Virus record (IMG/VR): IMGVR_UViG_3300025137_004795 | Coordinates: 1 to 46,695 of that record | DNA: 46,695 bases | Origin: a virus | Reading direction: 5' to 3' (one strand) | Shown here: in pieces, positions 22,532-39,757 of the stretch | How positions within the stretch are numbered: the stretch's first letter is position 1 | Layout: every line of letters begins with the position of its first letter | Position numbers and translations under genes: made by a program | Notes under the pieces: model-generated | What the model was told of the DNA's origin: nothing | Seen by the model: the letters and a program-made list of their open reading frames with translations, nothing else | Databases searched by the model: none

Positions 22532-22556
22532 CAGTATAGCAAATACATGTTACTAT
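22528..22556 (+). promoter_or_regulatory. Sigma-70 promoter for uvdE
   Basis: TTGACA (22528-22533), 17-base spacer and TACTAT (22551-22556), 29 bases before the ATG. The -35 box overlaps the stop codon of the preceding gene. Confidence 0.65.
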
Positions 22557-22585
22557 ATATTGTAATCATTAGTAAGGTGTAATTT

Positions 22586-23638: not shown

Positions 23639-23872
23639 ATGAATATGGACGAAGTATATAGACTCAAGTATCTAGCAGGTATCGTTAATAAAGACGGTAC
23701 TAGTGTGGAACCTGAGACTACTTCTATGGAAAACCTAAGTAACATTGGTAGTGAAAAAGGTGAATACATGAGAAAAAATAAGATACAACCTGGGACTAAC
23801 GAGTGGTTTAAGTTGTGGTTTTCACAGCCTAAATTAACTGGTGAAGATCCAATGCCGAGGAAAAACAAATGA
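23639..23872 (+). CDS. Small protein with RLKxLAG motif, first gene of the cargo-like cluster
   Basis: 77 residues. The N-terminus MNMDEVYRLKYLAGI resembles the AELSRLKKLAGLSE phrase inside the protein encoded at 24597. The C-terminal part (IQPGTNEWFKLWFSQPKLTGEDPMPR) looks like a conserved small phage motif, but I know no function for it. The gene is headed by an exact late promoter and overlaps the next gene by 4 bases. Probably a virion-associated or co-packaged protein, by context. Confidence 0.7.
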   Translation: MNMDEVYRLKYLAGIVNKDGTSVEPETTSMENLSNIGSEKGEYMRKNKIQPGTNEWFKLWFSQPKLTGEDPMPRKNK

Positions 23873-24348
23873 GAGCAAAAGACTTAATGGAAAAAGGACT
23901 AGTAACACCTGATCCAAAATTACCTAACTTTAAAGAGCTAGGTAAACCAAGTAAATATATGAAACGAAAGAAGGCTTTAGATGTAAAAACAAAGCCTATG
24001 ACAGAAGAAACATTCAACGATGATGATGAATTCTTTGAAGCATATGGTTACTTGGCTTATAGTATTGATGAAAACGATCTTTTTGAAGCGGAATATCAAG
24101 GACGTACTGTTAAACTAAACAAACCCATGCAGGGTGATGTTAAAAAGTTTAAAGTATATGTCAAGGACCCAAAGACTGGAAATGTTAAAAAAGTAAACTT
24201 TGGACATGGCGGATCAAGTGTTAAAGGTAAAGCAATGAAAATTAGAAAGAATAATCCTAAAGCTCGTAAAAGTTTTAGAGCTAGACATAATTGTGATAAT
24301 CCAGGACCTAAGACTAAAGCACGTTATTGGTCATGTAGGAAGTGGTAA
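23869..24348 (+). CDS. Basic phage protein, possible virion cargo
   Basis: 159 residues, strongly basic in the second half. It begins MRAKDLMEKG, giving an early L-M-E that fits a prohead-protease site. The C-terminal 90 residues (from QGRTVKLNKPMQGDVKKF) form a compact domain with VKKVNFGHGG, KARKSFRARHNC and a final ARYWSCRKW. Two conserved Cys and one His could bind zinc. I recall this domain as frequent in marine phages with no known function; the basic charge would suit DNA binding inside the capsid. It ends one base before the next ATG. Confidence 0.75.
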   Translation: MRAKDLMEKGLVTPDPKLPNFKELGKPSKYMKRKKALDVKTKPMTEETFNDDDEFFEAYGYLAYSIDENDLFEAEYQGRTVKLNKPMQGDVKKFKVYVKDPKTGNVKKVNFGHGGSSVKGKAMKIRKNNPKARKSFRARHNCDNPGPKTKARYWSCRKW

Positions 24349-24585
24349 ATGAGAATACACGAAATTACAGATTGTTGTGATGATTGTGTTAATGAAGCAA
24401 TTGGATTAATGTTTAAAGGTTATCCGTGTACAGTTGATTGTGGTGGACATAAAGCAGGCTACCGTTATGCAAACTTTAAAATGCCCAACAAAACGCCTGC
24501 AGACATGCAACGAGTAATGGGCGGAATTGGAACTGTACATAATAGTTTCTGGGAAGGTGCTAAATCTTACCTAGAGGAAATATAG
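24349..24585 (+). CDS. Small Cys/His protein with MRIHEI N-terminus
   Basis: 78 residues beginning MRIHEITDCCDDCVNEA, then the segment YPCTVDCGGHKAGYRYA (residues about 25-41), whose CTxDCxGHxAGY pattern looks like a small metal-binding motif. The rest is helical. It belongs to the group of proteins here with M-R-I-x-[DE]-[IV] starts. Function unknown. Confidence 0.7.
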   Translation: MRIHEITDCCDDCVNEAIGLMFKGYPCTVDCGGHKAGYRYANFKMPNKTPADMQRVMGGIGTVHNSFWEGAKSYLEEI

Positions 24586-24596
24586 AGGGAAAAATT

Positions 24597-25043
24597 ATGA
24601 AGAAGAAAAATTGTGGTTGTGGAAAGGATCCATGCGAAACATACGGAAAGCAAGATGAATCATATAACATAAACGCATCAGCAGGCAATATGGATATGAT
24701 TCATAAAATATTTGATAGCTTAGATGATGAGCAGAAAACACAGATACAAAGAGAATTAACTGTAAAAGTTAGAGGCATTAGTGTTCCTCCAATTAATCCT
24801 AACTTAGGAAAATTAAAAGATAGAAATCCTAATGATAAAGATATTGCTGACATGCCTTTATCACAATTACAGAACTTGTATAGTGATGTTAACGAAGCTG
24901 AACTCTCACGTCTAAAGAAACTAGCAGGACTTTCAGAAGTTGCTGGTCCTGATAAATGTTGGGACGGTTATAAAAAAGTAGGCACTAAGCCAGGTACAGG
25001 TAAAAACAAAGGCAAGCGTGTTAACGACTGTGAAAAGAAGTAA
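24597..25043 (+). CDS. Hypothetical protein with Cys-rich ends and RLKKLAGLSE motif
   Basis: 148 residues. The start MKKKNCGCGKDPC is Cys-rich. The middle is helical and ends in AELSRLKKLAGLSEV near 101-115, which contains L-S-E, a possible prohead-protease site. After this lies a short basic domain with two cysteines (CWDGYKKVGTKPGTGKNKGKRVNDC). The AGLSE site therefore separates two modules, as in the larger neighbours. Its stop overlaps the next start (TAATG). Function unknown. Confidence 0.7.
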   Translation: MKKKNCGCGKDPCETYGKQDESYNINASAGNMDMIHKIFDSLDDEQKTQIQRELTVKVRGISVPPINPNLGKLKDRNPNDKDIADMPLSQLQNLYSDVNEAELSRLKKLAGLSEVAGPDKCWDGYKKVGTKPGTGKNKGKRVNDCEKK

Positions 25044-26905
25044 TGTCAAAAAGTATAGATCGGTCACTGATTCAAAAAATTAAAGACAAAGCAGTTGAAC
25101 ATGGCATCGATCCGGCTCTTTTACTATCTATAGCATATAAAGAAACTAGAATCCGAACAGGTCTTACTGGAGATACAGATAAAAAGAATCATGCACATGG
25201 CGTATTCCAAGTGCGTTTACCTGCCTTACAGGATGTTAACGATTATTATAAAACATCATATACAGTAGATAATATGAAAAACAACATTGATGATAACATT
25301 GATGCTGGTGCTCGTTATCTTATGATGATGAGAGATAGATATGGTGCTGAGAATACACAACAACAACTTGCTATGTATAATGGTGGCCCAGGTGCTAAAA
25401 AAGGAAACAACAAAGGGGCAAATAATTACGCTGATAGCGTAATGAAATATAAAGGTACAATAAATGCTATTATAGATGATGATGACAACAATACTACTGC
25501 AATCACTCCAAGTAAAAATGCACCATTTAGATCACCTGCTCCAAAGCTGAGACCAAAAAAATTAGATGTTCCTCTTCCAAAGGCAAGACCAAAAAACTTA
25601 GATGTATTACCACCATTACCAAAACCAAAACCAAAAGACTTAAATGTATTACCACCATTACCAATTCCTAAACCTAAAAGGAAAGCCAACAAACTAACAT
25701 ACATTGATTTGGCAAAGATGAATAAGATTACTGACGTCAATAAGATTGGCATAGGTCAGAAGATTAAACTGCCTGATGGTAGCAAATATATTGTACAAAA
25801 AGGTGATACACTAAGCAAAATTGCACAGTTACATAACAGAGTTACAGAATCAATAAGTATGGTAAAGCCACAATTTGATGTAGAGTGGGAAGAAGCAAAT
25901 CGTTATCCGTATATAGAAAAACTAGGACAACAAGGCTGGGAAGACTTTGCACAAAATGGTGTAGAAGTAACAATCAACCAAAGCAATATACATAAAATCG
26001 GCAACACAGGTGCTGATGGCAGTGAAAAATTAAGTGATTTAGAACCTGATAAAGTAGCACGTCTTAAAAAAGCATTTAGATCTGGAACAGTTGAAATGCC
26101 TATAGTAGTCAAGCAACCCGATGGATCATATGATCTAGTCGCAGGTAATACTAGACTAATAGGACTCATTACACATGAAGGCGAAGCAAAGGTTTGGTTA
26201 GTAGATGCTAGTTCATTATCAGAAGCAACGAGTTCACCGGGCAGAGTAAAACGTGCAGGTGCTAGTTGTAGTGGCTCAGTTACTGAACTTAGAGCCCTAG
26301 CAAAGAAACATAGTGGAACAGAAAAAGGTAAGATGTATCACTGGTGTGCGAACATGAAGGGTGGCAAGAAAGAAAGTATTCAAGAAGTACTAACAGATGT
26401 TACTAGTTCAACACAAGTATTTGTAGACATGGATGGAGTACTAGCAGACTTTTTCGGAGAATGGAAGAAGTTGATAGGTAGTGATTGGCGTAAGGTAAAA
26501 GACATTGAACCTGCACTACAAAAAATTAGAGACACAGAAGACTTTTGGTTAGACTTGCCACTACTACCACAGGCAAAAAACTTGTTGGGTATGATTAAAG
26601 ATCTAAAAGGTAGTTATACTATACTAAGTAGTCCATTGCCAGATGATCCCAATAGCGAACCACACAAACGAGAATGGATTGACAAGAATCTAAGTTTCTT
26701 TCCACCAGAGAAAATTATTATTACACATAACAAAACTCCATATGCAATTAATAGCGACGGATCACCAAACATATTAATTGATGACTTTGGTCAGAATGTT
26801 AATAAATGGGAGGCGGCAGGTGGTGTTGGATTTAAACACAAGGATCACAAGTTTGAACGTACTGCTAAAGCGATTAAACAACACATGTCTGATCCTGCTA
26901 AATAG
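25043..26905 (+). CDS. Multi-domain protein: lytic transglycosylase, LysM, ParB-like and HAD nucleotidase modules
   Basis: 620 residues with unrelated modules in a row. Residues 1-130 are a lytic-transglycosylase (SLT/goose-lysozyme-like) domain with catalytic-type Glu34 in AYKETR, then GVFQV and LAMYNGGPG. Residues about 165-214 are a Pro/Lys repeat linker (PKPKPKDLNVLPPLP). LysM-like sequence follows (about 222-270): the end of one repeat (KIGIGQKIKLP) then the start of another (YIVQKGDTLSKIAQLHN). A ParB/sulfiredoxin-like domain has DLVAGNTRLIGL near 372. A small basic segment covers about 396-447. Residues 457-620 are a HAD 5'-nucleotidase (FVDMDGVLADFF, ILSS, LIDDFGQN). Possible prohead-protease sites LSE394 and IQE448 lie exactly at two module borders. 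It could be an injected polyprotein that opens the wall and acts on nucleotides. Confidence 0.85.
   Translation: MSKSIDRSLIQKIKDKAVEHGIDPALLLSIAYKETRIRTGLTGDTDKKNHAHGVFQVRLPALQDVNDYYKTSYTVDNMKNNIDDNIDAGARYLMMMRDRYGAENTQQQLAMYNGGPGAKKGNNKGANNYADSVMKYKGTINAIIDDDDNNTTAITPSKNAPFRSPAPKLRPKKLDVPLPKARPKNLDVLPPLPKPKPKDLNVLPPLPIPKPKRKANKLTYIDLAKMNKITDVNKIGIGQKIKLPDGSKYIVQKGDTLSKIAQLHNRVTESISMVKPQFDVEWEEANRYPYIEKLGQQGWEDFAQNGVEVTINQSNIHKIGNTGADGSEKLSDLEPDKVARLKKAFRSGTVEMPIVVKQPDGSYDLVAGNTRLIGLITHEGEAKVWLVDASSLSEATSSPGRVKRAGASCSGSVTELRALAKKHSGTEKGKMYHWCANMKGGKKESIQEVLTDVTSSTQVFVDMDGVLADFFGEWKKLIGSDWRKVKDIEPALQKIRDTEDFWLDLPLLPQAKNLLGMIKDLKGSYTILSSPLPDDPNSEPHKREWIDKNLSFFPPEKIIITHNKTPYAINSDGSPNILIDDFGQNVNKWEAAGGVGFKHKDHKFERTAKAIKQHMSDPAK
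26897..26904 (+). promoter_or_regulatory. Late-type promoter motif GCTAAATA
   Basis: Two mismatches to TATAAATA, 19 bases before the ATG at 26924; same variant as at 7139 and 33791. Confidence 0.4.
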
Positions 26906-26923
26906 TAGTATGAGGAACTACGA

Positions 26924-28525
26924 ATGAGAATTAATGAAGTAGACAAACCAGTAACACAGGCTGATATTGATCAGCTAGAAATCTTTGCTGACCGTTTGTT
27001 TTCTAAAGTAGGTATTGATGTAGAGTTTACTCGTCACTTTTTAGATAGAGTTAATGATGAACGCAATATCAAACAGATTACACAGAGTGAACTAACCCGT
27101 TTATTCAAACAAGAATTTAAACGTTGGGGTAAGCCTATTGCACAGATGGGTCCTGATACTGAAGCAGTAATGAGAGATATGGCAACGAATATTAATATGC
27201 CATTTGCGTTGCGTTGGGACGAAACAAATCAAGAACTAGACTTAGTTGCTAAAACAATAATGCGTAAAGCAGACTTCAAAACAAGTAACCAAGAATTTGC
27301 AGTAGAAGATCAAATAACAGAATATTATCCAATAATTTCTGGAGCATTGGCAATTGCAAGTAGACTATTAGCAAAACGTGGAATTAAAATAGGAATAGAC
27401 TCTATAAAGAAAGCGGCTTCACATATGCCTTCAGGTACAACTCCAGAAGCAATTGCACAAACAGTGGCGGCTGTGATAGCAGGTGGTAAAGCCCTGACTA
27501 AACAAAAGAACAATGAAGCAACCACTAAGATGGGTGGTGGCACTAATTTTGATAAGTTCATGGGTAGAACTGGTAACAAAGAAGTTGATGATGCTATTAG
27601 GTCAATTAATAAAGATAATTATTCCACTAGTTCTGGAAGCAAACGTATTAAAAAACGAGGTTATTGGGATATTGATGGTAAAGATTATTATTATGAAGAC
27701 GTTTCTTCGGTAGGTAACAAGTTATCTATCGTCGAGGGGGGAGCGATGCCTGGTGTGGGTGCAATTCACATTTCAGAAATTGAACCCACACTGGCAAAGC
27801 TAGAAAAAGCATTAGGTATGGACCTAATGAGTAATGTTTTAGGAAGCGTTGGTAAGAGACAGTTCAGTGGAGACATTGATGTTGCTCTAAAAATAGAACG
27901 AGATGAGATTCCAGAATTCTTAGCAAAGCTAAAGGGTACACCAGATATTAAAGATATTGCTCAAAGTAGTGTTATTATGACAAAGGTACAAATACAAGAT
28001 TATGACGGAACTAAAACAGATGGTAGACCACGTACAGGATTCGTACAGGTAGATTTTATGCCAGGCGATCCGGGCTGGTTAAAGACATATTATCATTCAC
28101 CACATGAGAACGACAGTAAGTACAAAGGTGTTTTCCGTAACTTATTGTTAGCAAGTATATGTGGTATATATGATAGACAAGATAGTGCAGAACAAATTGA
28201 AGACGGAAGACCCAAAGAAAGCCTACGTTATATGTGGAGCCCAACAGATGGTCTAATTCGTGTTAAACGTACACCAGTCCCTAAAAAGAGTGGTGAAGGT
28301 TACACTAAGAAAAACTCTAATACAATAATGGCAGGACCATTTAAACAAGCAGATGAGATAGCACAAACCCTAGGACTTGATAGTGGAGCAGACTTAGACA
28401 GTTTTGAATCATTATTAGCGGCGATAAAGAAAAACTATCCACAGGATATAGTAAACAGAATCACCGAAGCTTTCACTAGAAATAACACAGTAAAAGATAT
28501 TGGCGTTCCAAGTGAACTTGCCTAA
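26924..28525 (+). CDS. Virion-cargo-like protein with nucleotidyltransferase-like domain
   Basis: 533 residues, N-terminus MRINEVDKP. Residues about 35-70 (FTRHFLDRVNDERN, ITQSELTRLFKQ) form a module seen in many marine phage proteins. I-T-E133 is followed by an amphipathic hydrophobic stretch (about 134-165), as in two neighbouring proteins. Residues about 280-460 resemble a Pol-beta-type nucleotidyltransferase: GKRQFSGDIDVAL near 305-317 provides two Asp, and FVQVDFMPGD near 373-382 gives the third. The target could be RNA, a protein or a small molecule. There are no membrane anchors apart from the amphipathic stretch. The module order and (I/L)-x-E sites suggest processing in the prohead. 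Confidence 0.75.
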   Translation: MRINEVDKPVTQADIDQLEIFADRLFSKVGIDVEFTRHFLDRVNDERNIKQITQSELTRLFKQEFKRWGKPIAQMGPDTEAVMRDMATNINMPFALRWDETNQELDLVAKTIMRKADFKTSNQEFAVEDQITEYYPIISGALAIASRLLAKRGIKIGIDSIKKAASHMPSGTTPEAIAQTVAAVIAGGKALTKQKNNEATTKMGGGTNFDKFMGRTGNKEVDDAIRSINKDNYSTSSGSKRIKKRGYWDIDGKDYYYEDVSSVGNKLSIVEGGAMPGVGAIHISEIEPTLAKLEKALGMDLMSNVLGSVGKRQFSGDIDVALKIERDEIPEFLAKLKGTPDIKDIAQSSVIMTKVQIQDYDGTKTDGRPRTGFVQVDFMPGDPGWLKTYYHSPHENDSKYKGVFRNLLLASICGIYDRQDSAEQIEDGRPKESLRYMWSPTDGLIRVKRTPVPKKSGEGYTKKNSNTIMAGPFKQADEIAQTLGLDSGADLDSFESLLAAIKKNYPQDIVNRITEAFTRNNTVKDIGVPSELA

Positions 28526-28546
28526 TCTAAAACTACGAGAAGAAAT

Positions 28547-29731
28547 ATGTACATAAAAAGAGATCCCAAAAGATACTGCGTATTCACATCTAATTATCCA
28601 TTTATTGATAATGACGGCTATACTGCATTATGTTGTAAGAACAGTCACCATAAACTTCCATATCATATTAAAGAACATAAGCTCAGTGACATCTGGAGGT
28701 CACCGGAGATGCTTGCCGTACGTCAGCAGTTTGCAACAGGAAAAGATGTTAAAGGTTGCTTTAAATGTTATGAACCTGAAGCACAAGGTATTAGAAGTTT
28801 CCGCACTAAAATGCTAGGACAACTTAATTTTAAAGACGGTAAAGTACCGTTCTTAGATGATGAGATCAGAGCTATAGATCTTCGTATAGGTAACATATGC
28901 AATCTTTCATGTACAATGTGTTACAGTGGTAATAGTAATAGAATTTATCAACAGATACCTAAAATGGCAAAACATTTTGGCTGGAGTCAGGGTAAAGTAG
29001 ATGCAGAGATGGAAAAGTATTCTGCTAAAAACTATGACTGGAGTAATGACGAACGTGCTTGGGATAATATTATTTCGGCACTTGATGAGAATCTATTGCA
29101 TTGTTATCTAGCAGGTGGTGAACCGTTTTACCTTAGAAACTTTGCTAATACAGTAAGACGTATTGGTAGTCTTGCACCTAATGCCCGTTTTGTTATTAAC
29201 ACAAATGGTACTAGACTGTTAAGAGAAAAAGATCTAAAACAATACGAAGGACTAAAGATTGGTATACGTTTAAGTGTAGATGGCTGGGAAAAGTCAGATG
29301 AATGGACTAGACAAGAAACTGTTTGGGAAGATAAACTTGCCGTTATGGATCAGTACTATAAAGAATTCAACTTAAGAGTATTTGATATTACTGCCAATGC
29401 GTTTAGTGTTAGAAGTATTCCCAAGCTAATAGAGTATTTAGATGAAAGATATCCTTTAAGTCAGATACAAGTACGTCCTGTTATTAACAAGCAGGAAATA
29501 CTAATGGAAAACATTCCAATGCATTTTAGAGAAGAAAGTCTATCATTTTTTGAGAAGCATTCGTCAAGAATAATGGGATTAGATCATGTAATTATGGAAA
29601 TGAAAAAGCCTTATAATGAAAGCAACCATAGAAAGGAAGTAGTGACAAAGTTTGTAGACTACTTTGATAGAAATGGAACAGTAAAATTAGAGGACTTTGA
29701 TCCAGAACTTGCAGAGTATGTTTATAACTAA
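28547..29731 (+). CDS. Radical SAM protein with N-terminal Cys-rich (twitch-like) region
   Basis: 394 residues. CNLSCTMC lies at 118-125 (Cys118, 122, 125), the SAM-binding AGGEPF near 193-198 and INTNGTRL near 221-228. The first 80 residues hold CC (in YTALCCKN) and GCFKCYEPEAQG, which resemble the SPASM/twitch auxiliary cluster ligands, here placed before the catalytic domain. SPASM/twitch enzymes usually modify peptides or proteins. A protein of the same layout is encoded at 42207. It is the only gene in this part of the cluster without a cargo-like start, so it may act in the infected cell, perhaps on neighbouring products. Confidence 0.88.
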   Translation: MYIKRDPKRYCVFTSNYPFIDNDGYTALCCKNSHHKLPYHIKEHKLSDIWRSPEMLAVRQQFATGKDVKGCFKCYEPEAQGIRSFRTKMLGQLNFKDGKVPFLDDEIRAIDLRIGNICNLSCTMCYSGNSNRIYQQIPKMAKHFGWSQGKVDAEMEKYSAKNYDWSNDERAWDNIISALDENLLHCYLAGGEPFYLRNFANTVRRIGSLAPNARFVINTNGTRLLREKDLKQYEGLKIGIRLSVDGWEKSDEWTRQETVWEDKLAVMDQYYKEFNLRVFDITANAFSVRSIPKLIEYLDERYPLSQIQVRPVINKQEILMENIPMHFREESLSFFEKHSSRIMGLDHVIMEMKKPYNESNHRKEVVTKFVDYFDRNGTVKLEDFDPELAEYVYN

Positions 29732-29734
29732 TTC

Positions 29735-29742
29735 GATAAATA
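29735..29742 (+). promoter_or_regulatory. Late-type promoter motif GATAAATA
   Basis: One mismatch to TATAAATA, followed by C, 27 bases before the ATG at 29770. Confidence 0.55.
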
Positions 29743-29769
29743 CTTTTAACAGAGATACGGAGTCATACA

Positions 29770-30600
29770 ATGAGAATTAATGATATTATTAGTGAACAGG
29801 GTGTTATTGTTCAGGGAGTGAATACAACTGTTGACGTAAAAGTGGGACAAACAGAAAAAGAAGCTAAGAAATTATTTCCTATGAATAAAGGTGGCAAGCC
29901 TAAGCAACAACCTGGCGGTGCTGTTCATCAGCTTTTTAACATGGGACTTAGTGAGTCTACTATAGATGAGATTACAGCAATGGAGGCTCCTGTTAAACAG
30001 AGTGATGTTGTATCTGTAATAAACAATTTAGCATCTCGCAAAGATGACAACCCTTTTTCCGTACGATTTTATAACGGTGCCATCGGTAAGATTAGACCAA
30101 GCACAGCAAAGAAAGTATTAAGTTTCATTGAACGTATTGATGCTGATGAAGTTAAGGCTAAAGTAATGACATACATCTCAACAATTAATGGATTTAAAGA
30201 AATTGCACAGAAGGCTGGCGTTAAGGTTAGTGAAAACAGTAATAGACCAGTTATTACTAGAACAGGCGCAGGCACAACTAAAACAGTCGGCGGTAATGAG
30301 ATATCAAGAGCAACTCCAAAAATTGGTGGAAACCAGACTACACAGTATGCTGATGGTAGTATCAAAACAGTAAACACTACAAAGGCTGGCGGCGCCAATA
30401 TACAGAAGACACAAGTTGCTGGTATTGGACAAAAGCAAGGTGTAACCAATGCTAAGATAAGCAAAGGTGACATGGCAGTAAATATGAACTTTGATGGTAG
30501 CAGTAATAAAATTGATCCTCGTAAAGCAACCAGTACTGGAATGCGATACAAAAAACCAAACGGAATAACTAAAACTGTTGGAAATATGAAGGCAATATAA
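29770..30600 (+). CDS. Virion-cargo-like protein with MRINDIISE N-terminus
   Basis: 276 residues. The start MRINDIISEQG carries I-S-E at 7-9, a good match to a T4-type prohead-protease site after a short targeting peptide. The middle is helical, with GLSESTIDEITAMEAP containing more candidate sites. The last 110 residues are a low-complexity, Gly/Lys/Thr/Asn-rich basic tail (TGAGTTKTVGGNE, KTVNTTKAGGANIQKT). No known domain. The basic tail would suit contact with packaged DNA. A late-type promoter precedes it and a 50-residue gene overlaps its stop. Confidence 0.7.
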   Translation: MRINDIISEQGVIVQGVNTTVDVKVGQTEKEAKKLFPMNKGGKPKQQPGGAVHQLFNMGLSESTIDEITAMEAPVKQSDVVSVINNLASRKDDNPFSVRFYNGAIGKIRPSTAKKVLSFIERIDADEVKAKVMTYISTINGFKEIAQKAGVKVSENSNRPVITRTGAGTTKTVGGNEISRATPKIGGNQTTQYADGSIKTVNTTKAGGANIQKTQVAGIGQKQGVTNAKISKGDMAVNMNFDGSSNKIDPRKATSTGMRYKKPNGITKTVGNMKAI

Positions 30601-30752
30601 TGACTGATGAGTTTATGAAACATTATGTTACTAAAATCAAGGAACATGAAGAACTAAGACTGTCACAAAACGAACGAGATGCATATTGGGTTCAATGGCA
30701 TATCGATAATCCAGGGAACCTAAAAGAACGTGAAGATACTAATTATAGGTGA
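30600..30752 (+). CDS. Small 50-residue hypothetical protein
   Basis: Starts MTDEFMKHYVTKIKEHE and ends EDTNYR, mostly charged and helical. Its ATG overlaps the upstream stop (TAATG), and its last 23 bases overlap the GTG start of the next gene, so it fits the coupled series. Too short for a family call; a real gene is likely because it fills the gap exactly. Confidence 0.55.
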   Translation: MTDEFMKHYVTKIKEHEELRLSQNERDAYWVQWHIDNPGNLKEREDTNYR

Positions 30753-31593
30753 CAGTTATGTCCACAACTATGTTCCTGTTAATGTACTAGCTGAACGGAT
30801 CCTTAGCAAAAAACCAACACTTCAATTTCATGAAGATCATCCATACTTTTCTTGGCATACGCAACTATCTCAAATTAATCCATCTTGGGAAATAACTGCC
30901 AACGGAGAAGGTGGTTGTGATAATTGGTGGATATATTCTAACTTTTTGGAAAACTATAAAAACTATGATAAAGTAATAATCACCTGGACAGCTGAAAGTA
31001 GATATAGTTGGAAAACAGAAGACGGTGTCTGGTTTCATACTAGCAATATTGCATCTGCAAAAAATAAGTATGATTCAAATTGGCGGGGTAAAGATATCTA
31101 TAAACTAATGATGGATTTTTTACCACAAGTACATTATGAAGATTACAAAAGATATAAAACTTTTAATAACCTGATGCGTGATAATATAAAACTTCTTAGG
31201 CCAGATACTATGTTTATCAATTGCTTTAATCCTAATGATACACATTTACAGGAAGATCCTAGAGGCGAAAGACATTTTGATAGTTTATTTGCACTAACAA
31301 GATATGAAAATAACCAACTAGGCATTACAGGACCTGCATATTGGAAAACGCCAGAATTAGATCAAGTAATTGATTGTAGATGTAGTCATCTTACAAAAGC
31401 TTCGCATATAATTTTAGCAGAACAGATTGTAAATGCTATAGAGTTAGGTGCTACAGAATTTAAGATTGATATTGCATCTTTTGAAAGAGATATGACTACT
31501 GAATATCATAAAGAATTTTGGACTAAAAGAGATGTGATGAAATATGCCGACAAATATTACAATGCAGGAATGTTAACCAAAAAGTTTGGCTAA
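30730..31593 (+). CDS. SGNH/GDSL-hydrolase-like protein
   Basis: 287 residues, GTG start. The N-terminus KILIIGDSYVHNY has the GDS block with Ser9 as nucleophile candidate. NGEGGCDNWW (near 57-66) fits the Gly block and VIITWTAESR (near 81-90) the following strand. CSHLTKASH (near 216-224) supplies a late His, although the usual DxxH spacing is changed. The fold suggests an esterase acting on acetyl or acyl groups of carbohydrates or lipids. No signal peptide. It lies between two cargo-like genes. Confidence 0.65.
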   Translation: MKILIIGDSYVHNYVPVNVLAERILSKKPTLQFHEDHPYFSWHTQLSQINPSWEITANGEGGCDNWWIYSNFLENYKNYDKVIITWTAESRYSWKTEDGVWFHTSNIASAKNKYDSNWRGKDIYKLMMDFLPQVHYEDYKRYKTFNNLMRDNIKLLRPDTMFINCFNPNDTHLQEDPRGERHFDSLFALTRYENNQLGITGPAYWKTPELDQVIDCRCSHLTKASHIILAEQIVNAIELGATEFKIDIASFERDMTTEYHKEFWTKRDVMKYADKYYNAGMLTKKFG

Positions 31594-31601
31594 ATACCAG
31601 T

Positions 31602-32363
31602 ATGAAAATAAACGATATCATTATGGAAGATCAAAATATGAATGAGGGCTGGAAAGAAACACTCAGCAGTTTGGCTATAGCCGCCAGTTTAACTGTTGGT
31701 ACTTTGGGTGCATTAACTGTTAAACAAGCAATAGACTCAAATGATTTTACTACAGGCCAGAAGCAGGAAATATTTAAGGCTGCTGATCTACCACAAAGCG
31801 AATTGCCTCCTGAACTATCAGCAACTCCAAAACCTCGTCCAGAAAGATTATTAGTTTACAAACCACTAACAAATACACCTGCTGAACAGACTTTACTTAA
31901 AGCCGCTGAATCATCTGGACTTAAAGGTGTTGAACTTGCGGCATTTATGGCGCAAATGGCACATGAGAGTGAGAACTTTAGTGATATGGTTGAGGATCAT
32001 CCTAATATTAAAAAATATGCTGGTAAACTAGCAAAAGCATTGGGAAACAAATCTGTTAATGATGCAAAACGTTTTATTGGTAGAGGCTACATACAACTTA
32101 CAGGACGTTGGAATTATGAATGGATGCAAAAGAGTTTGGGTATTGATTTAACAAGTAGTTGGAGTAATGCACACAAGGCAAGTAATCCAGATATTGCGGC
32201 TAAGATTGCTGTGGAGTTTTGGAAACAGCGTGTGAGACCTAACGTAAATGACTTTAGTAATACAGCTGAAGTGACTAAGCCTATTAATAGTAGACTGCAT
32301 GGACTGGAACACAGAGAGACAAGATTTGCAAAGTTGGCAAAGGGTCTCGTTGTCCGTAGATAG
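31602..32363 (+). CDS. GH19-type muralytic enzyme with cargo-like N-terminus
   Basis: 253 residues. The N-terminus MKINDIIMEDQN has I-M-E at 7-9. A hydrophobic stretch (about 25-45, LSSLAIAASLTVGTLGALTV) follows and could be an anchor or signal-arrest segment. Residues about 100-250 form a glycoside hydrolase family 19/lysozyme-like domain: FMAQMAHESENF with Glu122 and Glu124, then GRGYIQLTGRWNY near 161-173, the family signature. GH19 enzymes in phages cut peptidoglycan. It could be the endolysin, secreted by its own signal-arrest segment, or a virion enzyme used at entry, which the N-terminus favours. A GCTAAATA motif (31589-31596) is only 5 bases from the ATG, too close for a normal leader. 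Confidence 0.82.
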   Translation: MKINDIIMEDQNMNEGWKETLSSLAIAASLTVGTLGALTVKQAIDSNDFTTGQKQEIFKAADLPQSELPPELSATPKPRPERLLVYKPLTNTPAEQTLLKAAESSGLKGVELAAFMAQMAHESENFSDMVEDHPNIKKYAGKLAKALGNKSVNDAKRFIGRGYIQLTGRWNYEWMQKSLGIDLTSSWSNAHKASNPDIAAKIAVEFWKQRVRPNVNDFSNTAEVTKPINSRLHGLEHRETRFAKLAKGLVVRR

Positions 32364-32366
32364 AAC

Positions 32367-32765: not shown

Positions 32766-32985
32766 AAAGTTTGCTGCTCAAGATCTAGAAGATACACATG
32801 GACCAATGAATAGTGTAGCGAAGGAAGATGCCAAAGTTTGGGCAAGTAAGAAAAACAGAAGTAATGATTTTTCACAAGAGCAACTTCATCGTATAGAGGT
32901 TGCAAAACTACAAAAAGAAAAAAGAGCTAGTAAGAAAATAGATAGACGTACTAGTAAACAATTATTAAGAAACATAGGAGATTAA
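32755..32985 (+). CDS. Small basic hypothetical protein
   Basis: 76 residues, very rich in Lys and Arg, helical, without Cys. Ends KIDRRTSKQLLRNIGD. It could bind nucleic acid by charge. No family is recognised. It overlaps the acetyltransferase gene by 11 bases and is followed without a gap by the oxygenase gene. Confidence 0.65.
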   Translation: MSNKKFAAQDLEDTHGPMNSVAKEDAKVWASKKNRSNDFSQEQLHRIEVAKLQKEKRASKKIDRRTSKQLLRNIGD

Positions 32986-33768
32986 ATGTCAGAAGAAATA
33001 AAATTTAAATTTCAAGAGGATCTAAAAGACAAAGATGGTAAAGATCTTAAACTTATGCCAAAGAGTACACAAGCACAGGGAGATTTCTACGGCAAGTGGT
33101 TAGAATCAAACAGAACTAAGTTTGAACCCACTGATGAAGATATCAAGTGTGAACTACAACTACAAGCTCTAAGTATTTGGGAACCATTAAAATATGAATT
33201 TGATCTGGGCTGGTTTAAGAAACAAATCAAGCCGTATGATGATAAATGGGTTCCTTATTTAAGGCGTGAAGGTGTTACAAATGATCGTGATGGATTATGT
33301 CTAATGGGTATGCCAGGAGATGCTTACAATGATGGACTTAGTATGCCGGAAGCTAGAAGAAGACATGATAGAAAACTAGGTGAGATTGACTTTAATAGTA
33401 AAACAGAATTATATAATGATCTGTCAAGTCTACATGACATGTTGGAATTTTTCCAACCACTAGGTAGAAGTATGTTAGTGCGTACACACGCAGGAGGCTG
33501 GTTTCCACCACATAAGGACCAACCACAGTTAACCAGAGACACTTTTCGTATTGTTGCTTTCCTAAGTCGTGCAACACAACATGATGCATATCAATGGGAA
33601 ATGGAAGGCAAGAACTGGCCTATTACCCCTGGTAAGGCATACTATTGTGATACAAGAAAGACACACAGAACACACAGTTGGTTTAACAATAGTATTCATT
33701 TAGTTATTAATGTACCTAAAACATGGGAAAATGTTATGAAACTAATGAGTGTTACACAAAACTACTAA
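32986..33768 (+). CDS. 2OG-Fe(II) oxygenase-like protein (aspartyl/asparaginyl hydroxylase type)
   Basis: 260 residues. The C-terminal half has a double-stranded beta-helix pattern with the iron ligands H176 and D178 (PPHKD) and a distal His in KTHRTHSWFNNS (H227 or H230), followed by HLVINVP. The order HxD...H with an R nearby is typical of the aspartyl/asparaginyl beta-hydroxylase group of 2-oxoglutarate oxygenases. The N-terminal half is acidic and helical with no domain I know. The substrate is unknown; virion proteins and host factors are both possible. Such oxygenases are frequent in marine T4-like phages. Confidence 0.75.
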   Translation: MSEEIKFKFQEDLKDKDGKDLKLMPKSTQAQGDFYGKWLESNRTKFEPTDEDIKCELQLQALSIWEPLKYEFDLGWFKKQIKPYDDKWVPYLRREGVTNDRDGLCLMGMPGDAYNDGLSMPEARRRHDRKLGEIDFNSKTELYNDLSSLHDMLEFFQPLGRSMLVRTHAGGWFPPHKDQPQLTRDTFRIVAFLSRATQHDAYQWEMEGKNWPITPGKAYYCDTRKTHRTHSWFNNSIHLVINVPKTWENVMKLMSVTQNY

Positions 33769-33790
33769 CATAATAATATAGACAATTATT

Positions 33791-33798
33791 GCTAAATA
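33791..33798 (+). promoter_or_regulatory. Late-type promoter motif GCTAAATA
   Basis: Followed by C, 20 bases before the ATG at 33819. Third copy of this variant. Confidence 0.45.
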
Positions 33799-33818
33799 CT
33801 ACAAAGGCGGAGAAAAGA

Positions 33819-34241
33819 ATGAGATTCACAGACTTAGATGAGAATGTTTCGGGTGCATTTGCCACTAGTATGGGTGGCGGAAATGGCTTTGCAAATGGTG
33901 GGCCTGGTACAATAAGACGTGTCAAAAAAACCAAGAAAACAGAATCTAAGAAAGTTAAAGAGAGCATCTATCAAGCAAATAAAGATGATCCTAACAATCC
34001 TGAAGTCTTAATTTCCGGTTATGGGCGAATGAGTATGGAGACTCTCAAAAGAGTTGTAACTGACCATCTAGAAGAATTGGTTGGACATGCTAACGCAGAT
34101 AATTGGGATCAAGTACAATATACACTAGAAGAAAATGGTGTGTTCTCTGCTAAACTGAAAGCATTATTAGATGCTCAGAAAGAATTAGAAGGTATCCGCA
34201 AAAAAGGTGGTACTAAATCACGTGGAATAAACAAGAGGTAA
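33819..34241 (+). CDS. Virion-cargo-like protein with MRFTDLDE N-terminus
   Basis: 140 residues. The ATG at 33819 is preferred to an upstream start because it follows GGCGGAG and the late-type motif. The start MRFTDLDENVSG contains L-D-E at 6-8. A Gly-rich then Lys-rich stretch follows (MGGGNGFANGGPG, RVKKTKKTESKKVKE). The C-terminal half (VLISGYGRMSMETLKRVVTD through about residue 125) is a predicted helical domain. The charged linker and L-x-E site fit a packaged and cleaved protein. Function unknown. Confidence 0.72.
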   Translation: MRFTDLDENVSGAFATSMGGGNGFANGGPGTIRRVKKTKKTESKKVKESIYQANKDDPNNPEVLISGYGRMSMETLKRVVTDHLEELVGHANADNWDQVQYTLEENGVFSAKLKALLDAQKELEGIRKKGGTKSRGINKR

Positions 34242-34247
34242 CGACAA

Positions 34248-35732
34248 ATGAGTACAGAACGCGGTAGCAATGCAAATAAAATTAATAACACATTTGAACG
34301 TGTTATGGGTGAAATAAACAAATTTGAACAAGTCTTTAAACAAGGCGGTTCAATGGAGCAGGCAGTAATGGGCGTGGATGGAGATGTTTCTCATTTAAAA
34401 GATGTAACAGAAGCATTATCAAATCTTTATGAGGCATTAGAATCTGCACATTATGGTACAATGGGACATATTCAAGAAATGTTAAGTAAGAAAAAGAAAA
34501 TTACAAACAAGACTCCAGTTGGTATGGTAGCTGAAGGAGTACTTGATGGTGATGATGAAGATGGATTTATGGCACGTTCACAACTTTACTTCTTGGCTCG
34601 TGATGCTATTGCGTTACACGGTATGATTAATGACCAGGATAACTTGCAACCTTGGGTACAATCAAAAATTGCACAAACTTCAAAAGACATTGACGCTGTT
34701 CGTCGTTACACAGAGTACAATGAAATGGAAGATGGTGGTGCAGATCCAATGCAAGTAGGTCCTACAGACGAGCCAGCAATGGAAGGATATTCAGTTATGC
34801 CAGACATTGACAGAGAAAAATATCAAGAGCGTGATGGACTTGAAGGACCTTTTCAAACTAAAAGTGGTAAAGTAGTATATTACGATACAAAAGAAGGTTC
34901 GTATTACGATCCAGATACTGATATGTATATTAGCTATGACGAGTGGAGAGCATTAGATGAATCAACACAACTTAATGAACTTTTACCTGTAGTACCTATG
35001 GCTATACAGGCGGCATTGGCTGCTGGTAGATATGTTGCTCCTTGGTTACTTAAAAAGTTTGCAGGTCAAGGTGGTGCAACTATTCTTAAAAGAGCAGCTA
35101 CAAAAGGTATCCCTTCAGCAGTAAAAGGTGCTAAGACACTTGTAAAGAAACATGGTGCAGTTAAAACAGGACTAGGTACAGCAGGTAGAGTTGGTACTGG
35201 TGGTGCTGTTGGACATGGCGCGGCCACTTATGGTGATGAGCAGGACGATAGAGTAGATACTGCCGCAGATAAAATGGATGCCCTAAGAAAAAGAGATGCA
35301 AAAAGACGTGCTGGTTATTACAACGCAGATGGAAGTATTAAAGAAACTAAAGCTGAAGTTGAATACAAACTAGATAAACCAGATAGTAAAAAGTCAAAGC
35401 CGCCAAAGTTTCCAAGACAGAAACAAATGGTAGAAGCCAAAGATGAATTTAAACCTCATATGATGTACGATCCTAAAACAGGCAAAGGCAAAATGGCAAA
35501 GGTAAAGCAAGACCATTTAGATATGAAGGCTAAAGGTTGGGGACATGATAAGCCTAAAATTAAAGAAGGTAAGAGTCCACATAAAAAAGGTACACCGAAA
35601 TACAAAGCACACATGGCGGCTATGCATGCCAATAGTGCAAAGCCAGAAGGCAAAATGATTGAGGATAAAGTTAAGACTGAAGCAACTGAATTCTTTACTA
35701 AAATCAAAAAACAGGCGGGAGTAAACAAATGA
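34248..35732 (+). CDS. Large cargo-like protein with internal membrane-active segment
   Basis: 494 residues. Residues 1-160 are helical and acidic (EVMGEINKFEQVF style). A small beta module lies at about 200-238 (FQTKSGKVVYYDTKEGSYYDPDTDMYISYDEW). L-N-E244 is followed by a hydrophobic amphipathic stretch (about 245-275, LLPVVPMAIQAALAAGRYVAPW) and a Gly/Ala/Lys-rich region (276-325), which look able to insert into membranes. The last 130 residues are Lys-rich with more candidate sites (I-K-E near 442). This module chain, with processing-like sites at the borders, resembles the neighbours at 25043 and 35729. It overlaps the next gene by 4 bases. No enzymatic motif is visible. Confidence 0.72.
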   Translation: MSTERGSNANKINNTFERVMGEINKFEQVFKQGGSMEQAVMGVDGDVSHLKDVTEALSNLYEALESAHYGTMGHIQEMLSKKKKITNKTPVGMVAEGVLDGDDEDGFMARSQLYFLARDAIALHGMINDQDNLQPWVQSKIAQTSKDIDAVRRYTEYNEMEDGGADPMQVGPTDEPAMEGYSVMPDIDREKYQERDGLEGPFQTKSGKVVYYDTKEGSYYDPDTDMYISYDEWRALDESTQLNELLPVVPMAIQAALAAGRYVAPWLLKKFAGQGGATILKRAATKGIPSAVKGAKTLVKKHGAVKTGLGTAGRVGTGGAVGHGAATYGDEQDDRVDTAADKMDALRKRDAKRRAGYYNADGSIKETKAEVEYKLDKPDSKKSKPPKFPRQKQMVEAKDEFKPHMMYDPKTGKGKMAKVKQDHLDMKAKGWGHDKPKIKEGKSPHKKGTPKYKAHMAAMHANSAKPEGKMIEDKVKTEATEFFTKIKKQAGVNK

Positions 35733-37435
35733 GAATCAATGACATAGGAGCAACCTCTCCTAGTATAGCAAAGTTTGATAAACTAACTAGAACTGCAAAA
35801 CAAGTTCGTGAGTCTAAAGCTATAACTGATAGTGTTGTAAATGAAGGAAGTCCTGCTAATAATATGCTTGTAAGACTTGACAATATGCAAGATGCAATGA
35901 GACGTATGGTATTAAAAATACCAGAGATGGATGACGGAGATCTAACAGATCAAGTTACTACAATGATAAAGCTCTTAGATAAATTTGACGAAGTAATGCA
36001 AAGATCTTTTGCTATTATTCCTGAAGGCATTGCAGAAGCCAGAGATGGGCACGATATAGAATTACTAAAAGCAGTAGCAAATCAGATGGCAGAAGATGCA
36101 CGAATGGGTGACTATACTGCAATAGATCACTTATTAAAGAATATTAGTGTTTCTGAATTGCAAGGCTTCCTAAGTGATGAACCATCTGGTTTTCCCAATC
36201 ATTCATTAAATACTGACGAATCAATAAACGAAAAAGGAAAAGGTCTTTGGGCTAACATTCATGCTAAAAGAAAGCGTGGAGAAAAGCCAGCAAAGCCTGG
36301 AGAAAAAGGTTATCCTAAGACACTAGACATTGAAAGTGTACAAGAAGCAACTCCAACTAGTGAATATGATTATGATATTAAAAAGTTTTTTGCTAAAGTA
36401 CAAGAACTTGAAGATGAAAATCAACATGGTGAAGTTGCTCAAATGTTAACACAATTATATGGTACAAATTCTGAACTAATGATTATACGTGGTATCAATG
36501 GTATACATGCCAATCAAGGTAGTATTGATCCAGAAGAACAAAAGTTAAGAGATAAAATTAGTACAAAATATTATTATCGAGCACAAAAAGAAGCAGGTGG
36601 CGAAAAGTTTCCTGCAAACACAAGTGCTACACAAGGCAAAAGAATGGGTGCAGAATCATTAGGCGAAGCAAGAACCAATATGTTTGGTATACAAGTTCGT
36701 GATATAGACGATAAGATTAAAAGCACAGAAGAACAAATAGAACTTGCAAAAATTAATAAAGGTGGGTGGAAAGAAAAAGATATTCCAAAGTTAGAATCAA
36801 AACTAGCACACCTAAAGATGAAAAAAGCAAAAGGTATTACTGAAGAAGCAGAAAAGAATGCATACATTTGTGTACATGCTAAAAAAGGTAAACATGAATG
36901 CCATGCAACATCATCATATGGTGCGGCAAAGAAAGCGGCTGAACATTGGGGACTAAAAAGCACAACAGGTATTGATGCACATTTGGCAGTGGAAGAAAGT
37001 GTTCCTGGAATGGCACCAGACGACTACCATTGTAAAGATTGTAATGATACAATGCACAACCCTACAACTGATTGTCCACACGATTCACATGACGAGCAGG
37101 GTAGACATTGGGTAGATAATAACGGCAACGGTATTCATGATGCAGACGAAGGCATGGAACAGAAGTGTTGTTGTAAGTATTGCGGTGATGAACTATACGG
37201 CGAACCAAAAACAGATTGCCCATACGATATCAACGATCCAGATGGCGACAATTGGATAATGGTAGACGTTGATGGCGATGGCGATCCTGATATGAAAATT
37301 GCAATGGGATCAATGCCAGAAGGTTGGATGGATGATGCCAAAGATGCAGTAGGTTCTACTCTCGGTAAAGTAACAGATAAAGTAGCAGGTGACTTTAAGA
37401 AGCGAAAGAAATTATTCGGTAAATCGAAGAAATAA
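35729..37435 (+). CDS. Large cargo-like polyprotein with zinc-ribbon and Ca-loop modules
   Basis: 568 residues, start MRINDIGATSPS. At least four (I/V/L)-x-E sites with a small residue after them lie between modules: I-N-E168, V-Q-E206, L-G-E313 and I-T-E372. Module 206-313 is helical. Module 373-425 holds a Cys/His phrase (YICVHAKKGKHECHATSSYG) then AAEHWGLKSTTGIDAHLA. Residues 431-500 carry two treble-clef or ribbon-like CxxC units (CKDC/C and CKYCGDELYG/C). They alternate with acidic loops DNNGNGIHDADEG and DVDGDGDPD that look like EF-hand or dockerin-type calcium loops. The C-terminal 40 are amphipathic and basic. The sequence suggests a chain of small domains released by cleavage. Confidence 0.75.
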   Translation: MRINDIGATSPSIAKFDKLTRTAKQVRESKAITDSVVNEGSPANNMLVRLDNMQDAMRRMVLKIPEMDDGDLTDQVTTMIKLLDKFDEVMQRSFAIIPEGIAEARDGHDIELLKAVANQMAEDARMGDYTAIDHLLKNISVSELQGFLSDEPSGFPNHSLNTDESINEKGKGLWANIHAKRKRGEKPAKPGEKGYPKTLDIESVQEATPTSEYDYDIKKFFAKVQELEDENQHGEVAQMLTQLYGTNSELMIIRGINGIHANQGSIDPEEQKLRDKISTKYYYRAQKEAGGEKFPANTSATQGKRMGAESLGEARTNMFGIQVRDIDDKIKSTEEQIELAKINKGGWKEKDIPKLESKLAHLKMKKAKGITEEAEKNAYICVHAKKGKHECHATSSYGAAKKAAEHWGLKSTTGIDAHLAVEESVPGMAPDDYHCKDCNDTMHNPTTDCPHDSHDEQGRHWVDNNGNGIHDADEGMEQKCCCKYCGDELYGEPKTDCPYDINDPDGDNWIMVDVDGDGDPDMKIAMGSMPEGWMDDAKDAVGSTLGKVTDKVAGDFKKRKKLFGKSKK

Positions 37436-37441
37436 AAATAG

Positions 37442-37705
37442 ATGGCATATACAATAGTTAAAACATTGACTGATGAAGACGGCACAATACATGCAGATTC
37501 TACCTCATGGACAGAAAAGTTCGGGAACATGGGATTAGGTAGAGATGATATTGATGGATTTATTACTGCTGATGGAACTAGTACAGTTACACTAAGTAGA
37601 ACATTTGCCAGCGAGGCATCCTGGATGGATTATCAAGCAGAGATCTATTCTAAGAGAGGTGATCACACATTTACTTCTATATTGACTGAAGAGGAAACAA
37701 GTTAG
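37442..37705 (+). CDS. Small hypothetical protein
   Basis: 87 residues, acidic, beta-rich, no Cys. Starts 6 bases after the polyprotein gene and its stop (TAG) overlaps the GTG start of the next gene by one base. Composition (TITADGTSTVTLSRTF-like) resembles small virion beta proteins. No family recognised. Confidence 0.65.
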   Translation: MAYTIVKTLTDEDGTIHADSTSWTEKFGNMGLGRDDIDGFITADGTSTVTLSRTFASEASWMDYQAEIYSKRGDHTFTSILTEEETS

Positions 37706-37968
37706 TGGCCAAGAAGAAACAAAGAGCAACACAGACTTCACAAGGAGTAGTTTGCCAAAATAAAAGTGCAGTATCAAAGGCACGAAGAAAAGATTGGATG
37801 ACAGGTCCAGAAAGATCTCAAGCTCAGCTTGAAGCATTTAATAGAGGCAAAAGAGTTATGTTAACTATTGCCAATCCTAATACAGCAGAAACAAACAAAA
37901 GATTTATTAGAGTTCCAGCACATGATGTATGGCATACATCAGCAACTGGTGGAAAACCGAGAAAGTAA
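37705..37968 (+). CDS. Small basic hypothetical protein
   Basis: 87 residues, GTG start. Strongly basic at both ends (KKKQRATQ, KPRK), with a central VMLTIANPNTAETNKRFIRV strand region. Could bind nucleic acid. No recognised family. Ends 2 bases before the next ATG. Confidence 0.65.
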   Translation: MAKKKQRATQTSQGVVCQNKSAVSKARRKDWMTGPERSQAQLEAFNRGKRVMLTIANPNTAETNKRFIRVPAHDVWHTSATGGKPRK

Positions 37969-37970
37969 CT

Positions 37971-38330
37971 ATGAAAATAAATGAAGTAATAGGCAAAGAT
38001 GACGTAGGTCAAAAGATTTATAAAGACAACAAAACTCGTGTTGTACATACTCCTGTTGCTGATAAAAATATAAGTGTAGCTGATCAACGTATGGATAAAT
38101 TTGATAGTGATAGAGCTAGAGATAATTTAAATTACAAAGGTGCTAAAATTACTATGCCTGGCACAAATCAAGCTATTGCTAAAGCTCAAAATAATATTAA
38201 ACAAGCCTACAACAAGCAAGATAAAATAGATCAAAGATCTGGTGCTGGAACTTCTTTTATTAAAAAAGGTAAGCCTGTAAGATTTGACAAGAGTAATAGT
38301 CTTAGCAACTCAAACATTAAACTGGACTAG
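37971..38330 (+). CDS. Virion-cargo-like basic protein with MKINEV N-terminus
   Basis: 119 residues. The ATG at 37971 is preferred since it gives the MKINEVIGKDD start shared with the neighbours; an in-frame ATG at 37929 lies inside the upstream gene. The rest is basic, rich in Lys, Asn and Asp, with no known domain. It may coat or condense DNA or be an injected protein. Function unknown. Confidence 0.68.
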   Translation: MKINEVIGKDDVGQKIYKDNKTRVVHTPVADKNISVADQRMDKFDSDRARDNLNYKGAKITMPGTNQAIAKAQNNIKQAYNKQDKIDQRSGAGTSFIKKGKPVRFDKSNSLSNSNIKLD

Positions 38331-38341
38331 GAAGATAAAAA

Positions 38342-39757
38342 ATGAGATTACGTGAATTTAAAGAAGTGGAACTACTAAGAGAAGGCAATCTAACACATGC
38401 TGAACTTGGTAAACACTATGGTAGATACTTAGGAATGTTTATTGATAAGATAAACAATTCAGAACCCTTTGAGGTTACTAATCCAGACAAACGTATTGAA
38501 CTAGGTGATCAAGTAGTACTTGACAAAAGTGCCATTAATGCTATATTACAAGCATACTTTGGACAAAATAAAATACCTTCAGCAGATGAAATACAAGCAG
38601 ATTCAGGCGGTAAGGTAAAACCAGTAGCAGATCCAAACAAAGTAGAACTAAAAACACAAACAGGTGGAATAGTTTATATTGGAGCACTTCGTAAGCCATC
38701 AGAATTTGGTAGTGCAAAAGGATTTAATACTGGACAAATAGCCGAAGGTGCAATTGGCGCCGCGGTTGTGGCACGTTTTAAGAAGCGTGAAGGAGAGATT
38801 ACTTCTGCAGATGTAATTGAGATAATCAGAGGCATGGGTCCTGGAGAAGAATCCGGTAAGAATTTAAAAGGTGGACTGAACGAACCATCTAAGAATGATA
38901 AAATTTACTTTAACTTGGTATTACCTAAAGGTGATTATAATGCTTTATATGGTGGCGTAACCAAAGAGAAGATGCACCCTGATATGCAAGGTGTTATTAA
39001 TTCAGCAACAATGTTTGCTAACAGTAGTGTGGTAAGTGAAGCCCTACAAAAAATTATACAAGATAATAACTCCAACAACGTAAGTATAAACAGTGACGGA
39101 GCCAGTGACCAAACAGGCACAAAAGCAGATCTATTCCTAGACATAGATGGAACAACAGTTAATCTATTAAGTCTAAAAGCTGGAGATGTTAAGCAGTTTG
39201 GACAAGGTAGTGGATACACATATGATAAACTAGATGGTTTCTTTAAAGATACATTTGGTGTAGGTGTTCCTGCACAGTATGAAGATGAACTTGATGGTAA
39301 AGATCCAAAAGAAGCATTTGGTATTATTCATGAAGTATATGCCTCAATAGCCCAAGCTCTACAGGCAGAACTTAGTGGACATAATATTCCTAGTGAAGCA
39401 CGTTTTGTTGAAAGACTATACAAAGGTATTAACCAACATGCTACTCGTGGTGATGATAGTGTTACAATGGTTGTACTTAAAAAGACACCTAATGCTCCTG
39501 GATTTACTGAACTACAGTTTGGTAAAGCTCTACAGGATGCAATGGAAAATACTAACCTAACAGTAGACTATAAGACTCCTGGACAGGGTAGTGCAATTAT
39601 TGATATTTTAGGAGAGCCAATGGGTGGCGGAGCACCACAAATGCTGGTTAGAACCCGTGGTAACTTTAAAAGCGAAGGCAAGGGTTATGTGAGAAACATT
39701 GTTGAAATGGGTCCATTACTTAAGACACTTGCTAAAATAGAAAGAGATCAAAAATAA
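38342..39757 (+). CDS. Cargo-like protein with PD-(D/E)xK nuclease-like core
   Basis: 471 residues. The start MRLREFKEVELLREGNL contains L-R-E at 12-14. The region TKADLFLDIDGTTVNLLSLKAGD (about 260-282) has the Asp, then a beta strand, then a Ser-Leu-Lys arrangement, as in the PD-(D/E)xK nuclease core (D...xLK), with a helix following (VKQFGQGSGYTYDKL). This pattern is short and common, so the nuclease call is tentative. The N-terminal 90 and C-terminal 150 residues match nothing I know. An injected nuclease would suit early attack on host DNA. It is the last gene of the cargo-like series. Confidence 0.65.
   Translation: MRLREFKEVELLREGNLTHAELGKHYGRYLGMFIDKINNSEPFEVTNPDKRIELGDQVVLDKSAINAILQAYFGQNKIPSADEIQADSGGKVKPVADPNKVELKTQTGGIVYIGALRKPSEFGSAKGFNTGQIAEGAIGAAVVARFKKREGEITSADVIEIIRGMGPGEESGKNLKGGLNEPSKNDKIYFNLVLPKGDYNALYGGVTKEKMHPDMQGVINSATMFANSSVVSEALQKIIQDNNSNNVSINSDGASDQTGTKADLFLDIDGTTVNLLSLKAGDVKQFGQGSGYTYDKLDGFFKDTFGVGVPAQYEDELDGKDPKEAFGIIHEVYASIAQALQAELSGHNIPSEARFVERLYKGINQHATRGDDSVTMVVLKKTPNAPGFTELQFGKALQDAMENTNLTVDYKTPGQGSAIIDILGEPMGGGAPQMLVRTRGNFKSEGKGYVRNIVEMGPLLKTLAKIERDQK

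Follow-up and report, generated by a model that had tools for sequence, protein, structure and literature searches.

Why should nine neighbouring genes of a phage, whose products otherwise differ, encode the same few residues at their N-termini? The question is raised by the IMG/VR record IMGVR_UViG_3300025137_004795, a 46,695-base fragment of a marine T4-like jumbo phage with 51 genes, which was analysed over its full length and is called the window below. The nearest named-phage kin of its DNA polymerase (43692-46337) are Sinorhizobium Phosso, Agrobacterium Atu_ph07 and RaK2-like phages, and a megablast search with 17 kb of the window against phage genomes gave no match. A first-pass annotation had listed the nine genes and proposed that their common start is a capsid-targeting sequence (CTS). 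Our analyses, based on sequence comparison and on analogy with T4, make it highly probable that the nine N-termini are T4-type capsid-targeting propeptides carried by a large, modular cargo set. On the same basis we infer that the tagged proteins would be targeted and cut, and that they may be present in the particle of this phage and be injected.

The shared motif can be written as ^M[KR].[^P][DEQ][ILVF], with position 3 left free. This pattern fits precisely the nine listed genes out of 51, while composition predicts 0.44% per gene, or about 0.2 genes in the window (p=1.6e-12), and only 1 of 340 internal Met residues in the window fits it. All nine genes lie within a run of 19, and none of the remaining 32 window genes carries the tag. 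The mean pairwise identity of the nine N-termini falls from 50% in residues 1-6 to 7% in residues 7-12. The first-pass annotation regarded the rest of the proteins as unrelated, which holds within the window, where their bodies show no mutual BLAST similarity (best E 0.15), but not beyond it, since the bodies are mosaics of modules common to proteins of other phages. The same tag residues are encoded by differing codons (ATT AAT GAT, ATA AAC GAT, ATC AAT GAC), which favours selection at the protein level over recent DNA copying. All nine starts were confirmed at the listed coordinates. For 33819 and 37971, the naive open reading frames (ORFs) begin a little further upstream, at 33789 and 37929, with the listed ATG inside them; the listed starts are nevertheless the right ones, because the orthologs in the related contig L007 begin exactly there (417, MKFSDLEE, and 3952, MKINEVIG).

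Five of the nine tags, all on the plus strand, continue into an [IL]xE tripeptide within the first 15 residues, exactly as annotated. MRAKDLME (23869-23892; LME at residues 6-8) opens a 159-residue protein with a C-terminal phrog_7595 domain (23869-24348); MRINDIISE (29770-29796; ISE, 7-9) one of 276 residues (29770-30600), with the relatives MKINEILNE (L045) and MKISDIISE (L042); MKINDIIME (31602-31628; IME, 7-9) one of 253 residues with a GH19 lytic domain (31602-32363); and MRFTDLDE (33819-33842; LDE, 6-8) one of 140 residues (33819-34241). The fifth, MRLREFKEVELLRE (38342-38383; LRE, 12-14), opens a 471-residue protein (38342-39757); in its structural model the low confidence, below 50 on the predicted local distance difference test (pLDDT), coincides with residues 1-14 and ends at the predicted LRE/G cut (a slash marks cuts and junctions throughout). 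The frequency of 5/9 compares with 10% of control windows (p=9e-4). The other four tags, likewise on the plus strand, are MRIHEI (24349-24366; gene 24349-24585, 78 residues), MRINEV (26924-26941; gene 26924-28525, 533 residues, with a nucleotidyltransferase-like C-terminal part), MRINDI (35729-35746; gene 35729-37435, 568 residues) and MKINEV (37971-37988; gene 37971-38330, 119 residues, with orthologs in L001 and L007). Relatives of the first of these bear cut-type tags, MKINDIVNE in L133 and MKLYELFDTVSE in L141, and those of the second start with MRLNEFD (L077), MRFFELLKE (L168) and, in Melnitz, LKTFLQFE.

In the T4 record, the internal proteins IPII and IPIII start with MKTYQEFIAE/A, IPI with MKTFKEF...ITE/A and the vertex protein gp24 with MAKINELLRE/S. 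The prohead protease gp21 cleaves after L/I-x-E, and IPIII needs no more than its first ten residues to be packaged (PMC9026906). Within them, positions 4 and 7 play a part in targeting and positions 8 and 10 in cutting, and the two functions are separable: Asp at position 10 blocks cutting, while packaging is kept (PMC9026906). The internal proteins of T-even phages are diverse, with the CTS as their sole common sequence (PMC3012670). The window tag reproduces the T4 layout minus one residue, with K/R at position 2, hydrophobic residues at 3 and 6, an acidic residue at 5 and the terminal [IL]xE.

The tag is widespread in relatives. Related marine contigs, for which the DNA polymerase, 31602 and 38342 served as queries, provided 86 loci with 1604 ORFs. 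The tag pattern stands at the start of 155 of these ORFs, where the rate at internal start-type codons (26/6575) would predict 12.5. These 155 ORFs form 25 single-linkage families, a conservative count because shared modules chain families together. Loss of the motif in relatives had been named beforehand as an observation that would speak against the CTS; instead, the tag is retained by orthologs, such as the two L007 proteins mentioned above, a third starting with MRANEF, and the GH19 protein of L012 (MRASEF), and it also occurs on further, non-orthologous genes. An [IL]xE ending by residue 16 is present in 72 of 100 distinct tagged N-termini, and in 53 of the 72 it ends at residue 8 or 9. 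The corresponding figures are 7.8% in control windows taken from these proteins and 12% at N-termini without the tag, so that the enrichment behind the tag is about nine-fold. Position 3 is I/A/L/F/Y/V/M in 93 of the 100, and the consensus reads M-[KR]-[I/A/L/F]-x-[D/E/Q]-[I/L/F]-(I/L)-x-E. In the jumbo contig G025, the pattern is found on 15 of 455 ORFs genome-wide.

Several observations link the tag to the head. We confirmed gp21 (PF03420) in Atu_ph07, PA5oct and the jumbo contigs G023, G024, G025 and G030, the DNA polymerases of these four contigs being 55-57% identical to that of the window. Their major capsid protein (MCP) contains the junction LxE/NASAGSTSAGN or a close variant, and small tagged proteins repeat this junction directly behind their tags (MRAQEFIKE/NASAGATSSGS, MKIRDILE/SATAGATSSGN, MKISDILNLNE/DASAGATSAGN, MRAHEIME/NASAGATCAGS). 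Tagged proteins of 65-75 residues that, past their own cut site, resemble the mature N-terminal arm of the MCP were noted in L015, L016, L042, L055 and G025 (186603-186821). Moreover, the gp67-position protein opens with MKINDIITE/GYY in PA5oct, where it was found by virion mass spectrometry, and with MKLTELFNPLTE/SYY in Atu_ph07; in the four jumbo contigs it begins with M(N/L/V)..E(L/F), which is less clearly tag-like.

Upstream motifs suggest that the tagged genes may be expressed late, at the time of head assembly. In the relatives, a T4-late-like [ACT]TAAATA lies within 18 nucleotides of the ATG in 14/103 tagged vs 23/926 untagged genes (p=4e-6), and in the window CTAAATA precedes three of the nine tagged genes on the plus strand, 26924 (26898-26904), 31602 (31590-31596, 5 nucleotides before the ATG) and 33819 (33792-33798). 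At some starts TAAATA stands just about 5-12 nucleotides before the ATG (window 31590-31601, L042:2948, L046:1386), a proximity that suggests leaderless or near-leaderless late transcripts. Conservation, site enrichment, the T4 layout, the MCP junction, the presence of gp21 in relatives and the enrichment of T4-like late-promoter motifs all support the proposal of a CTS.

Atu_ph07 offers a parallel case (L004/L027; MF403008, 39484-49507), in which ten consecutive genes each start with M[RK]W.QL.E and a further tagged gene follows. The array carries YRGM/YRGI motifs, and from these and general knowledge we take its ten genes to be ADP-ribosyltransferase-like; the two proteins tested had no Pfam match. 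The ten genes correspond to coding sequences (CDS) ~53-62 of the record and would lie inside the CDS 31-76 cluster, from which 29 virion proteins were detected by mass spectrometry (PMC6102473), if the numbering of that paper follows the record order.

The modular nature of the cargo allowed the cut-site rule to be followed inside the proteins. Four cargo modules follow a tag directly in some proteins and are embedded in longer ones elsewhere. With module regular expressions that carried no requirement for Glu, and with distinct contexts counted, Glu preceded the module in 89/89 cases (NFADG 61, GKSPHKKGT 13, AEYQGR 8, SIY..PNNPE 7). Position P3 was I/L/V/M/F in 73 of the 89, P2 and P4-P6 being mostly non-hydrophobic, and for NFADG the enrichment at P3 relative to the remaining Glu residues in these proteins was strong (83% vs 27%, p=4e-20). 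Examples of tag-fused forms are MRAAEFVTE/NFADG (L011), MKINEIITE/NFADG (L171), MKINEILNE/GKSPHKKGT (L191) and MKINEINE/SIYQ (L055). The rule is not universal, because two of the six modules tested, ICVHAKKGK and CWDGYKK, have no Glu at a fixed position before them; an earlier test under looser conditions, in which a stretch of 12 residues was searched, was negative as well.

Cleavage at such junctions is a prediction from sequence. In the window, on the plus strand, it would fall at LFE/AEYQGR (24079-24087, after residue 73 of gene 23869; [LI]xE in 8/8 contexts), at VKE/SIYQ (33954-33962, after residue 48 of gene 33819; the module is tag-fused in L055 and L047) and at IKE/GKSPHKKGT (35559-35567, after residue 440 of the untagged gene 34248; tag-fused in L191). 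Two further plus-strand junctions are candidates, INE/KGKGLWANIH (36224-36232, after residue 168 of gene 35729), which is weak and known from a single context, and LSE/ATSS before a RAGASC module (26216-26224, after residue 394 of the untagged gene 25043), a single context of the N-side variant. In L010 (8311-10311), a single-tag ORF joins NT5C (5'-nucleotidase), Cu/Zn superoxide dismutase and GH19 lysin domains. An ISE lies near the start of its dismutase and a VNE before its GH19 part, and this VNE/GI aligns with the second site of 31602, MNE/GW, and with LDE/GW of L011 and L012.

These data may be combined into the following mechanism. The tag stands on unrelated late-type genes and usually ends in [IL]xE at residue 8 or 9. 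By analogy with residues 4 and 7 of T4 IPIII, the basic residue 2 and the hydrophobic residues 3 and 6 would bind the prohead scaffolding core. As in T4, the S77 protease (gp21) would then cut after Glu, the peptide would leave, and the mature cargo would stay in the head with the DNA. The four window proteins lacking an early site may be packaged and remain untrimmed at that point, like the Asp-10 variant of IPIII. Ejection into the host would be the expected fate. Reaching further, the internal [ILVM]xE sites between modules raise the possibility that one tag imports a precursor that is then cut into several proteins. We regard as possible, at slightly less than even chances, a form of cassette loading in which a lineage-specific N-terminal address peptide is combined with [ILVM]xE-separated modules, so that multi-enzyme precursors such as that of L010 would enter the prohead on one tag and be split by the prohead protease into separate injected proteins, the set also including mini-proteins that imitate the N-terminal arm of the mature MCP.

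Some of our results weigh against a trimmed capsid-targeting propeptide. Four of the nine tags (24349, 26924, 35729, 37971) have no early [IL]xE, and a cyanophage homologue of 38342 has no tag. The window fragment yielded no gp21, scaffold or capsid gene, and PF03420 and protein searches for gp21 had no match either there or in 20 related polymerase contigs, all of them fragments. In PA5oct, the record of which marks the proteins detected by virion mass spectrometry, tag-like starts occur in 6/93 detected proteins vs 1/83 in a comparison group of selected undetected ones, a difference that is suggestive only (one-sided p=0.08). The search pattern was derived from the finding itself, with position 3 and the cut site lying outside it, and the counts across relatives are phylogenetically non-independent, yet they span many unrelated bodies.

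Three other explanations of the shared start were weighed. The tag could address proteins to the tail or baseplate, or tether them to the scaffold without trimming, with [IL]xE as an ordinary flexible acidic linker. The four tags lacking a site would fit this view, as would the annotation of the tagged PA5oct mass-spectrometry proteins as merely structural. We nevertheless consider it unlikely, given that [IL]xE is nine-fold above the control windows with a peak at residues 8 and 9, that it matches the sites of the MCP and gp24, and that the head-core protein at the gp67 position is tagged in PA5oct and has a related start in Atu_ph07. Another explanation is that the tag serves translation initiation or expression only, AT-rich starts, promoters and ribosome sites having been copied together with the 5' ends and the encoded residues having no role in the protein. 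The starts are indeed AT-rich, and in some genes the late-promoter motif adjoins the ATG. However, the same residues are written in different codons behind differing upstream sequences, [IL]xE follows at a fixed distance and the junction is shared with the MCP, and nearby genes of that strand manage without the tag, which together render this explanation very improbable. Least probable of the three, and hardly to be expected, is a host-side localisation signal acting during infection, whether for the membrane, the periplasm, another compartment or as a degron. Short amphipathic N-termini can address membranes, but the sequences behind the tag contain no Sec/Tat-like hydrophobic core. A tag that resembles T4 head propeptides and is predicted to be cut off after residue 8-9 also speaks against such a signal. 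A capsid-targeting propeptide remains our preferred interpretation.

What the tagged proteins may do can be partly read from their bodies. Besides the GH19 protein, 26924 has a nucleotidyltransferase-like region with a GS...DID motif, in agreement with a weak fold match to Pol beta/mu (E about 0.01, probability up to 0.97; model pLDDT 60). The protein of 38342 resembles only uncharacterised Synechococcus phage proteins, and its predicted structure has no fold match in the PDB; a PD-(D/E)XK nuclease, suspected from E135, D263 and K279, was not confirmed. Elsewhere in the window, an untagged 620-residue ORF (25043-26905) contains SLT transglycosylase, LysM and NT5C domains and a Cys-rich basic module. 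Host-like metabolic and stress genes were identified by Pfam at 116-12389 and 20722-23611 (SufB, DnaJ, ClpA-like AAA, radical SAM, UvdE); a tricarboxylate-transporter-like gene (116-2817) and a PhoH-like gene on the minus strand (6309-7043) were judged from sequence only.

Most genes of giant phages are of unknown function, and the passengers of their virions are normally learned only through proteomics. A tag recognisable in sequence and equipped with a protease site of its own could provide a list of likely packaged, and perhaps injected, proteins of uncultured phages. Such lists would include enzymes, here the GH19 lysin, the nucleotidyltransferase-like protein and the ADP-ribosyltransferase-like array of Atu_ph07. 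The mechanism established in T4 would thereby be extended to marine jumbo phages, with a testable prediction for each protein.

Systems of this kind are known; judged by the literature searched, the novelty lies in the dialect, in the module junctions and in the number and nature of the cargos. The T4 CTS (the propeptides of IPI, IPII, IPIII and gp24/Alt, with gp21 belonging to Peptidase_S77) is likewise a short N-terminal peptide on otherwise unrelated proteins, with a basic residue at position 2, a pair of hydrophobic residues at a distance of three, an acidic residue ahead of the second of them and a terminal [IL]xE. However, the window tag has 8-9 residues instead of ten and the consensus M[KR]IN[DE]IIxE instead of MKTYQEFIAE. 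In addition, no fewer than nine cargos are encoded within 16 kb of the window, large enzyme-like proteins included, and there are apparent internal junctions, with gp21 encoded outside this fragment if present. The array of Atu_ph07, a relative by its DNA polymerase, resembles the window in that ten genes all start with M[RK]W[NEQHD]QL[TNI]E, but it uses another tag dialect and repeats one cargo family, whereas the window has many unrelated cargos. In SPN3US and phiKZ, the prohead protease also removes N-terminal parts of head-internal cargo, the ejection proteins; there, the propeptides are mostly long (>100 residues for several; PMC5694885), the protease is diverged and no short shared tag has been reported, whereas the window sites lie at residues 8-14. 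Polyvalent proteins and MuF-fused effectors, for which packaging and injection have been inferred (PMC9503650), resemble the window set in being multidomain enzyme cargos. The nine tagged proteins gave no Pfam match to a MuF or portal domain, and they appear to depend for entry on the short tag.

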